From Candidatus Sumerlaeota bacterium (GTDB taxonomy: Bacteria > Sumerlaeota > Sumerlaeia > JAPLSS01), in contig JAPLSS010000511.1 in assembly GCA_026398515.1 (NCBI GenBank), positions 1 to 35,681 on the forward strand: DNA of 35,681 nucleotides, in the 5' to 3' direction. A program made the translations under genes and the position numbers. Shown piece after piece: positions 3,550-26,708 of this stretch (position 1 is the stretch's first letter; each line of letters starts with the position of its first letter). The notes under the pieces were generated by a model. It was not told the origin of the DNA. It did not search any database and was given only the letters and a program-made list of their open reading frames with translations.

Positions 3550-4584
3550 TCACACCCCCATCAAATGCTCCAGGATCGCCAGGTCGAGCGTTTCGTAGTC
3601 GCGGTCGCCGATGCATTGGCGCCAGAGGTCCATGTCGAAGGAGCGCGCCTTGTCCAGCAGCGCCAGGAAGACGCGGCGGCTGTTGGCCAGGTGAAGGGTG
3701 GCGGACTCGGCCTTCTGGGTGCGCATGGCTTTGACATCGAGGCCGACAAACGCGCCGGTTTGCGGGTAGCCGCCCTGCTCCAGCACCCAGACCTGGTCGA
3801 ACGCGCGGCGCAGGTTGGCCGAGCCGAACGTCTTGTCCTGGTCGAACTTCAGGCCGTTCTGGTCGTTGAGGTGGACGCTCCAGAGTTTCCCGGCCGACAG
3901 CGCGAAGGCCATTTCGTCCGAGGGATCGAGGCCGGCGAGGATCGCGTGAGCCGTCTCAATTAAGCCGCCCACGCGTTTCGGATCGCACGCCCGCGACGCC
4001 AGGGCCAGCGCGTGGCCGATGGTCGGAATGTAGGCGTGATCCATCGGCTCATTGGGCTTCGGCTCGATGGCGATGCGGATCTTCGGGTCGTGTTTGAGAA
4101 TCGCGTTGATGGCTTCGAGCAGCCAACGATGCGCGTTGATCGCCGGCTTCGATTCGCGGATGTACGTCCCCTCGCGCGCCAGCCACAGGACCATCAGATC
4201 GCACCCGAGTTCGCGGGCGATGTCGGCGGCGCGTTTCGAGCGGTCGATGGCCCAGCGGCGCGCCTTGGGATCGTTGGCCGTGTAGCCGCCGTCGATCCCG
4301 CGCGGGTCTTCCCAAAGGCGCGGGGCGACAAACTCGGCGACGAGCCCTTCGCCGGCCAGCATTTTGCGGACGGCCTTGGCTTCCTTGCGAACTTGGGCGG
4401 CGGTCTTGGAGTCGACCTGCGGCACGGCGTCGTCGTCGTGGAACTGCACGCCGTCGAAGCCGAGTTGTTTGTAGGCTTTCAACTTCTTCGCGAACGTCAC
4501 GGTCGGCCGGACCGTGGGGCCGAACGGGTCGGCGCCTTCGTGAATGTTCCACGGGCCGAACGAGAAATGATAGTCGACGGGCAT
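3550..4584 (-). CDS. Xylose isomerase / sugar isomerase-like TIM barrel
   Basis: Protein from MPVDYHFSFGPWNIHEGADPFGPTVRPTV...LGFDGVQFHDDDAVPQ...; the FGPW...DPFG...FHDDD signature is that of the xylose isomerase family. The ORF-track start at 4995 overlaps the neighbouring gene, so start 4584 is preferred. Confidence 0.8.
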   Translation of the reverse strand: MPVDYHFSFGPWNIHEGADPFGPTVRPTVTFAKKLKAYKQLGFDGVQFHDDDAVPQVDSKTAAQVRKEAKAVRKMLAGEGLVAEFVAPRLWEDPRGIDGGYTANDPKARRWAIDRSKRAADIARELGCDLMVLWLAREGTYIRESKPAINAHRWLLEAINAILKHDPKIRIAIEPKPNEPMDHAYIPTIGHALALASRACDPKRVGGLIETAHAILAGLDPSDEMAFALSAGKLWSVHLNDQNGLKFDQDKTFGSANLRRAFDQVWVLEQGGYPQTGAFVGLDVKAMRTQKAESATLHLANSRRVFLALLDKARSFDMDLWRQCIGDRDYETLDLAILEHLMGV

Positions 4585-24801: not shown

Positions 24802-24843
24802 CGGCGCGCTGGTTTCCTGATCCTTCTATGCGCGCTCCGCAAG

Positions 24844-25019
24844 ACCCTCTGCCGCGGAGACGCTGAGGCGCAAAGGCGGATTCGCCAATTGCTCTGCGTT
24901 TTCGCGTCTCTGCGGGAATTTGCTTCGGCAAGGCGTCGGGAGTGAAAACCCTCTGCCGCGGAGACGCTGAGGCGCAAAGGCGGATTCGCCAATTGCTCTG
25001 CGTCATTGCGTCTCTGCGG
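24844..25019. repeat. Two near-identical ~72-bp palindromic elements in direct orientation
   Basis: ACCCTCTGCCGCGGAGACGCTGAGGCGCAAAGGCGGATTCGCCAATTGCTCTGCGT at 24844 and again at 24948; each is internally an imperfect palindrome. Confidence 0.9.
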
Positions 25020-25022
25020 CAC

Positions 25023-26579
25023 TCACGGATCTGCCGGCAAGATCCCCGCCACCCGCCCGCGATACAGAACCGCAATGCGATCGCTGAGGGCGAAGATCTC
25101 CTCCAGGTCCGCCGAGATCAGCAGAATCGCCGTCCCCGCATTGCGCTCCTCGCGCAGCCGCGCGTGGATGACTTCGATCGCGCCCAGATCGACCCCGCGC
25201 GTCGGATGCGCGGCGACGAGGGCGCGCGATCCGTGCGCCAAGCGCGAGGCCGCGAGCGCCTTCTGTTGATTGCCCCCCGAAAGCGCGCGAATCGGCGCTT
25301 GGGGCACGGGCGGCTCGATACGGAAGGCGTCGATGCATTGGGCGGCATGGCGGCGCAATGTCGACGGCCGCAGCCAGCCGAAGATCGCAAAGCCGCGGCG
25401 CCGCTGGTGCGAAAGCAGCAGGTTTTCTCCAAGGGTCATGCCGAGCGCCAGCCCGCCTCGCGAGCGGTCGGGCGGCAGGATCGCCAATCCGCGCGCCACT
25501 CGCGTTCGCGGCGAATCGCGGGTGACGTCCACGCCGTCCAACCGAAAGGCGCCGCGCGTCGGCCGCCGGATTCCCGCGAGGCATTCGACCAGCGCCTCTT
25601 GCCCATTTCCGTCGACCCCCGCCAGTCCCACGATCTCCCCGGCGTGGATAGCGAGAGTGAAATCCCGCAGCGGCGATCCCGAAGCCCCGGCGCTACGGAG
25701 GTCTTCGATTTCGAGAACCGGCTGGCTCGCCTTGAGTGGCATAGGCTTTCCAGCCTGCGCTGTTTCGAAGCCAGGGCGGGAAAATGCGCAGGCTGGAAAG
25801 CCTACGCCACTTCTCCGCGGCAACTCGCGTCCGATCATCAGGCGCGCGATGTCGTCTTCGCGAAAGCCCGTCAGCGGCCCTCCGCCCGCCACGCGCCCAT
25901 GCCGCAGGACGGTGAGATCGTCGGCGATGGCCATGACCTCCGGCAGCCGGTGCGTGATGAACACGATGGAACGCCCGCCCGCGCGCAGGCGGCGCAGGAT
26001 GGCGAACAAACCCTCGACCTCCGGCGGGGCGAGCGCCGACGTCGGCTCGTCGAGAATCAGGATGCGCGGCTCGCGAATGAGCGCCTTGAGGACCTCTACG
26101 CGCAGTCGCTGCGCCAAGCTCAACGCGCTGGCGCGCGCCTGCGGGTCCAGGTCGAACGCGTAGGCGTCAATCGCGCGGCGCGCCGCTTCGACGGCGCGGC
26201 GCGTTCCCGGGCGTCCGACTGCGGCGCCGGCGCTCAGGGCCACGTTTTCCGCGACGGTGAACGCTTCGACGAGCGCGAGGCGCTGGGGAACCATCGCGAT
26301 TCCCAGGCGCGATGCGTCGGCCGGCGTCCGAAGACGGACAGGGCGCCCGTCGACGCGAATTTCTCCGGAATCCGGCGCCGTCAGACCGGCCAGAATGCGC
26401 ATCAGGGTGGTCTTGCCGGCGCCGTTTTCGCCGACCAGCGCGTGGATCGTCCCCCGCCCCAGCGACCAGTCGATCTCGTCGTTGGCGCGGGCGGCGCCAT
26501 AGGCCTTCACCATTCGCCGCATTTCGACGATAGGATTCTTAGGGCCATTGTGGCTGACGGGGTCGGGCATGGGCGGCAA
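25023..26579 (-). CDS. Sugar/nucleoside ABC transporter ATP-binding protein with two ATPase domains (RbsA/MglA/YufO type)
   Basis: ALVGENGAGKTTLMRILAGL (Walker A), ILILDEPTSALAPPEVEGLF (Walker B), second domain with IVGLAGVDGNGQEALVECLAG and LSGGNQQKALAASRLA. Confidence 0.93.
   Translation of the reverse strand: MPPMPDPVSHNGPKNPIVEMRRMVKAYGAARANDEIDWSLGRGTIHALVGENGAGKTTLMRILAGLTAPDSGEIRVDGRPVRLRTPADASRLGIAMVPQRLALVEAFTVAENVALSAGAAVGRPGTRRAVEAARRAIDAYAFDLDPQARASALSLAQRLRVEVLKALIREPRILILDEPTSALAPPEVEGLFAILRRLRAGGRSIVFITHRLPEVMAIADDLTVLRHGRVAGGGPLTGFREDDIARLMIGRELPRRSGVGFPACAFSRPGFETAQAGKPMPLKASQPVLEIEDLRSAGASGSPLRDFTLAIHAGEIVGLAGVDGNGQEALVECLAGIRRPTRGAFRLDGVDVTRDSPRTRVARGLAILPPDRSRGGLALGMTLGENLLLSHQRRRGFAIFGWLRPSTLRRHAAQCIDAFRIEPPVPQAPIRALSGGNQQKALAASRLAHGSRALVAAHPTRGVDLGAIEVIHARLREERNAGTAILLISADLEEIFALSDRIAVLYRGRVAGILPADP
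25736..25810. repeat. 75-bp inverted repeat (REPIN-like) in frame within the ABC ATPase gene
   Basis: GTGGCATAGGCTTTCCAGCCTGCGC (25736-25760) versus reverse complement of 25786-25810, GTGGCGTAGGCTTTCCAGCCTGCGC: 24/25 identical, 25-bp spacer. Confidence 0.95.
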
Positions 26580-26635: not shown

Positions 26636-26696
26636 GCTCGCAGTGCGACCCTCAGGTCGTATAGGTCACATAGGTCGAATAGGCCCTCTAGGTCCC
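26636..26696 (+). repeat. REP-like half-site followed by 9-bp-period tandem repeat
   Basis: GCTCGCAGTGCGACCCTCAGGTCGTATAGG, then GGTCGTATA GGTCACATA GGTCGAATA GGCCCTCTA GGTCCC. Confidence 0.8.
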
Positions 26697-26708
26697 ATCG
26701 CTTCAAAC

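Follow-up and report, generated by a model that had tools for sequence, protein, structure and literature searches.

The stretch of DNA analysed here (the window) is a contig of 35,681 nucleotides from a Candidatus Sumerlaeota bacterium. It carries an intact gene for a tandem-domain ABC transporter ATPase, inside which lies a hairpin-forming unit of 75 bp, built of two 25-bp arms around a 25-bp spacer (Table 1). Read along the window, the unit runs as GTGGCATAGGCTTTCCAGCCTGCGC, the spacer and GCGCAGGCTGGAAAGCCTACGCCAC, and in the ATPase it encodes the peptide VGFPACAFSRPGFETAQAGKPMP. The position, length, three-part layout, arm complementarity and peptide given in a preliminary description were each found in the sequence. 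When folded as a single strand, the unit had an energy of −56.4 kcal/mol, compared with −23.9 ± 3.1 kcal/mol for shuffled sequences (z = −10.4), and none of 200 shuffles folded as well. Only two matches to the arm were present in the window, both at this unit, where 0.04 would be expected. A search of Rfam returned microRNA models only, far below the gathering score, which is expected for any long hairpin, and no target-site duplication was evident by eye at this one copy.

Table 1. Repeat units and genes described in the text; positions are those of the window unless another contig is named
Feature	Position	Strand	Remarks
ABC transporter ATPase gene, tandem-domain, sugar/BMP (RbsA/YufO-like) type, 518 aa, intact ORF	25023..26579	-	two PF00005 (ABC_tran) stretches
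REPIN, complete 75-bp unit, two inverted REPs and spacer	25736..25810	-	in frame; ends coincide with the conservation edge over 206 arms
Left REP arm GTGGCATAGGCTTTCCAGCCTGCGC, which forms a short hairpin of its own (loop TTCC)	25736..25760	+	24/25 complementary to right arm
Spacer, 25 bp, from the weakly conserved family spacer	25761..25785		best match 17/27, to copies L043:4726 and L086:9309
Right REP arm, identical to the family consensus (GTGGCGTAGGCTTTCCAGCCTGCGC on the minus strand)	25786..25810	-	from arm matching in genome and window
AddA-type helicase-nuclease gene with a pair of in-frame REPINs	L031:4131-4210 (80 bp), 4424-4498 (75 bp)		between helicase and nuclease domains
In-frame 78-bp REPIN in PMT_2/TPR membrane protein gene	L275:5096-5173		encodes VTQAFRPV...HRLESLRHE

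The unit encodes approximately residues 257–282 of the ATPase, in the linker between its two domains. Over both domains the protein is 41–45 % identical to its five closest Sumerlaeota homologues. We aligned the linker with those of 18 homologues from the class; 14 of them have a short linker at this site, while among the five closest four have a linker that is longer and unrelated in sequence. The segment is absent from the homologous ATPases, and none of them shares its linker sequence, which would have spoken against an insertion. An AlphaFold2 model built on the 18-homologue alignment gave pLDDT values below 50 at residues 255–284 and mostly 80–97 in both domains, so that the REPIN, as modelled, probably adds about 25 floppy amino acids to the linker. 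The uninterrupted reading frame, the alignment and the model agree with the earlier placement of the unit in frame in the inter-domain linker. The host is the sole member of its family in a class set of 39 genomes, with no relative near enough to offer a true empty site, and it is the comparison with homologues of at most 45 % identity and variable linkers that suggests an insertion.

A sequence search of the PDB with the ATPase gave generic ABC matches only. Its second Walker B motif reads AAHPTRGVD; a degenerate motif at this position is usual in YufO-like ATPases, and for this reason we did not take it as a sign of decay. Four of the five closest homologues (L187 to L190) have, as judged by reading, an ABC permease ORF that comes after the ATPase gene or overlaps its end. 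The ATPase stands alone in the window, and a permease homologue (43 % identical, with an open frame of 372 aa) lies on another contig of the host. Since a homologue of the partner permease exists elsewhere in the genome, the transporter is not obviously dead. We also noticed a 94 % direct repeat (CTCTGCCGCGGAGACGCTGAGGCGCAAAGGCGG...) just downstream of the gene, at window positions 24835–24910 and 24945–25014, with about 15 weaker matches in the genome, and short ATAGGTC-type repeats upstream, at 26655–26700.

The host genome is a 7.6-Mb metagenome-assembled genome (MAG) in 1012 contigs, estimated as 92.6 % complete. The 19-bp core of the arm had 472 matches in it (238 + 234) at three mismatches or fewer, compared with four (4 + 0) for a reversed-pattern control; this number of arms would correspond to roughly 230 units. 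BLAST recovered some 40 relatives of the 75-bp unit at full length. It is clear that the unit is not single-copy but belongs to a mobile multi-copy repeat, as the preliminary description had supposed. In a first pass over 80 contig stretches and the window, 76 of 78 pairs of arms were arranged head-to-head, mostly with 26–32 nt between the 19-bp cores. The units of the host family are mostly 74–78 bp long, and in the family as a whole, which is mostly intergenic, only two lengths are commonest, 75 bp being one of them; the length was therefore not selected for coding.

The ends of the unit are sharp and lie exactly where the preliminary description had placed them. Over 206 arms, conservation was 0.97 at the first base of the 5′ GTGGC, whose positions are each conserved in 89–100 % of arms, and it fell to 0.57 or less just outside the unit. 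Inside the arm only two positions vary freely: the T of GTAG, replaced by C in 45 %, and a base near the inner end, which is C in 69 % and T in 30 %. GTAG itself occurred in 102 of the 206 arms and GCAG in 81, and C also replaced this T in most of the copies listed from elsewhere. The GTAG-tagged layout first ascribed to the arms, which in that REP superfamily means a conserved GTAG at the 5′ end of the hairpin, was thus not found, the conserved 5′ tag here being GTGGC. In 30 units whose 24-bp arms enclose a 27-nt spacer, the identity of a spacer to its nearest neighbour was 0.72; the flanks gave 0.49 and shuffled spacers 0.47. Because the spacers are related between copies and the unit ends are sharp, the arms and spacer travel together as one replicating unit, a REPIN. 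Its identity as such is upheld by the copy number, the head-to-head arms, the fixed ends and the shared spacer: it is an inverted pair of REPs in one hairpin, high-copy and interspersed, with arms and spacer inherited together, and mainly extragenic. Around 98 host REPINs, the nine bases that adjoin the unit on either side were complementary to each other at a rate of about 0.43 (shuffled, 0.33), and in some copies the stem was extended by 9–11 bp more, as if they had been inserted in existing hairpins.

An ad hoc 3-periodic Markov gene caller was used to locate the copies relative to genes in 117 contig pieces (1.21 Mb, 76.7 % coding). Sampling relied on well-matched arms, which leaves heavily degraded copies under-represented; single-arm matches with more than four mismatches were dropped as likely chance. 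Away from contig ends there were 110 pairs: 90 intergenic, 15 overlapping gene ends and five in genes, of which four were clear (a pair in L050, with 6 and 6 mismatches, was left out). All four clear units are in frame: one in the ATPase, two in an AddA-type helicase and one in a PMT_2/TPR membrane protein. They make up about 4 % of the units, and the binomial chance of four or fewer in genes under random placement is about 1e-60. REPINs of this family are therefore nearly excluded from genes, and the ATPase copy is an exception. In other phyla, 85 of 91 units away from contig ends were intergenic. The AddA-type protein scored 426 bits against TIGR02785, below the equivalog cut-off of 708; it also carries a tandem triplicate of DQAGGVVAA.

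Some genes were seen to end 9 bp inside a REPIN (L021:7059, L028:951, L043:4792, L055:2324, L061:479 and L065:4333), and here GTGGCGTAG would supply the stop codon. Eight genes apparently split at REPINs were also considered. By reading, with no family search, the recognisable ones proved to be separate neighbours and not disrupted genes (dapF-like and phosphodiesterase-like, SufS-like and SufU-like, thiD-like and peptidyl-prolyl isomerase-like), with the stop in or beside the REPIN.

Candidate transposases were found next to the REP in other genomes. In two deltaproteobacterial MAGs a Y1/RAYT gene is flanked by the same REP (L240) or by a close form (L239); in L240 the gene stands between two inverted copies of the core GCAGGCTTTCCAGCCTGCG. 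The host has a homologue, L281, which is 46 % identical to the L240 protein over 164 residues, and both proteins pass the cut-off of NCBIfam NF047646 (REP_Tyr_transpos). L281 adjoins a close REP variant, GTGGCACAGGCTTCCAGCCTGTG, with a loop one base shorter than that of the family REP (GTGGCGYAGGCTTTCCAGCCTGY). A RAYT flanked by exactly the REP of the ATPase copy was not found in the host MAG (92.6 % complete); the L281 RAYT, or a missing one, may have moved the ATPase unit. The first five host Y1_Tnp genes were rejected as partners of the REPIN, since the repeats on either side of them are different ones. Around other IS200-like transposases in this genome (L010, L012, L013 and L014) there are other palindromic repeats, for example CCCCGAAGGGG and GGGAGCGCCGACGTCCTCGTCGGC, and several REP families seem to coexist. 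In the RAYT frames L240:1342-1941 and L281:1489-2388, REP sequence codes for the N-terminal part of the protein (GAGFPAC and GTGFQPV).

Beyond the host, the 23-bp arm was present in all 16 other genomes tested, with 1 to 96 matches each at one mismatch or fewer and none for the control. These genomes had been chosen for matching the arm and so show breadth, not frequency; they include Deltaproteobacteria, Acidobacteria, Zipacnadia, Anaerolineae and Verrucomicrobia.

Taken with the location of the copies, it is very probable that the ATPase segment is a selfish REPIN mobilised by a RAYT and tolerated since it is open and in frame in a flexible linker. The REPIN is a miniature, non-autonomous element made up of two REP hairpins in inverted orientation, and would be copied by an IS200-like RAYT which presumably placed one copy in the ATPase gene. 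Three circumstances may have let this copy survive: the frame was preserved, the reading phase is stop-free (GGC GTA GGC, not GTG GCG TAG), and the site was a variable, disordered linker between the nucleotide-binding domains. On the simplest reading it would be near-neutral, giving 25 extra linker residues and an mRNA hairpin that may affect expression, as first proposed, but at most modestly. A broader proposal, that one REP–RAYT family has spread over several phyla with its 23-bp REP almost unchanged, and that its in-frame linker copies, the two in one AddA-type repair helicase among them, are no mere accidents but are retained for an effect of the peptide or the mRNA hairpin on the protein or its expression, seems to us unlikely.

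We give still less credence to co-option at this locus, in which the extra linker or the stable mRNA hairpin would tune the folding, expression or activity of the ATPase. The stability of the transcript hairpin (−56 kcal/mol), the intact ORF with its near-perfect arms, and the recurrence of in-protein insertions in the host genome, two of them in one AddA-type gene, would all suit such a role. However, a recent neutral insertion accounts equally well for the intact arms, the segment is predicted to be disordered, the linker varies freely among homologues and nearly all sister copies are intergenic. It is also highly improbable that two contigs were misjoined at the repeat, although REPs are repetitive and the MAG is fragmented into 1012 contigs: both halves of the ATPase belong to the same protein family and are in one frame, the AddA-type and PMT/TPR genes are arranged likewise, and the spacer is copy-specific (the closest 27-nt spacer is 63 % identical), so assembly through it should be unambiguous. 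An ordinary linker that is palindromic by chance, with no mobile element, can be dismissed, for although four of the five closest homologues are also long-linkered, their linkers are unrelated in sequence and the same 75-bp unit recurs across the genome, mostly between genes.

The selfish REPIN preferred here has close counterparts. REPINs, or REP doublets, with RAYTs are established (Bertels and Rainey, 2011; PMC3116915), and our unit resembles them in its inverted REP doublet with spacer, its hairpin, its conservation as a unit, its hundreds of mainly extragenic copies and, probably, a link with RAYT genes, which occur in the host genome or beside the REP elsewhere. It differs in the REP sequence, in the host phylum, Sumerlaeota, and in that the ATPase copy lies inside a gene. 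The preliminary description named Rickettsia as a known case of in-frame palindromes, but in-frame REP dimers within proteins are not confined to that genus: a 2013 survey of intragenic GTAG/CGTC REPs in several bacteria had reported ones of 20–30 codons (PMC3733652). That survey also described genes hit twice, listed recBCD and UvrD/Rep as targets, noted TAG stops supplied by REPs to neighbouring genes, and suggested that flexible linkers might explain why the insertions are tolerated; its main text does not mention ABC transporter ATPases. Inserts of 20–30 residues, linkers, a double insertion, a repair helicase and TAG stops are all seen here too, the difference being that our invariant tag is GTGGC and GTAG inside the REP is not conserved. 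Many Rickettsia palindromic elements, as cited in the same survey, lie in frame within ORFs. Our element is likewise palindromic and in frame in protein genes, but with in-gene copies at about 4 % of units and a fit to RAYT-type REPs it is set apart from them on the ground of location.

The ATPase REPIN is thus a rare example of something already known from other bacteria, all but its tag fitting the 2013 account, and it leaves the current understanding of REP/REPIN elements unchanged. The occurrence of one REP across several phyla makes a case for studying the horizontal spread of REP–RAYT systems. For a little-studied phylum, the family clearly shows both the strong exclusion of REPINs from genes and the character of the rare survivors, which combine an open phase with a disordered linker.
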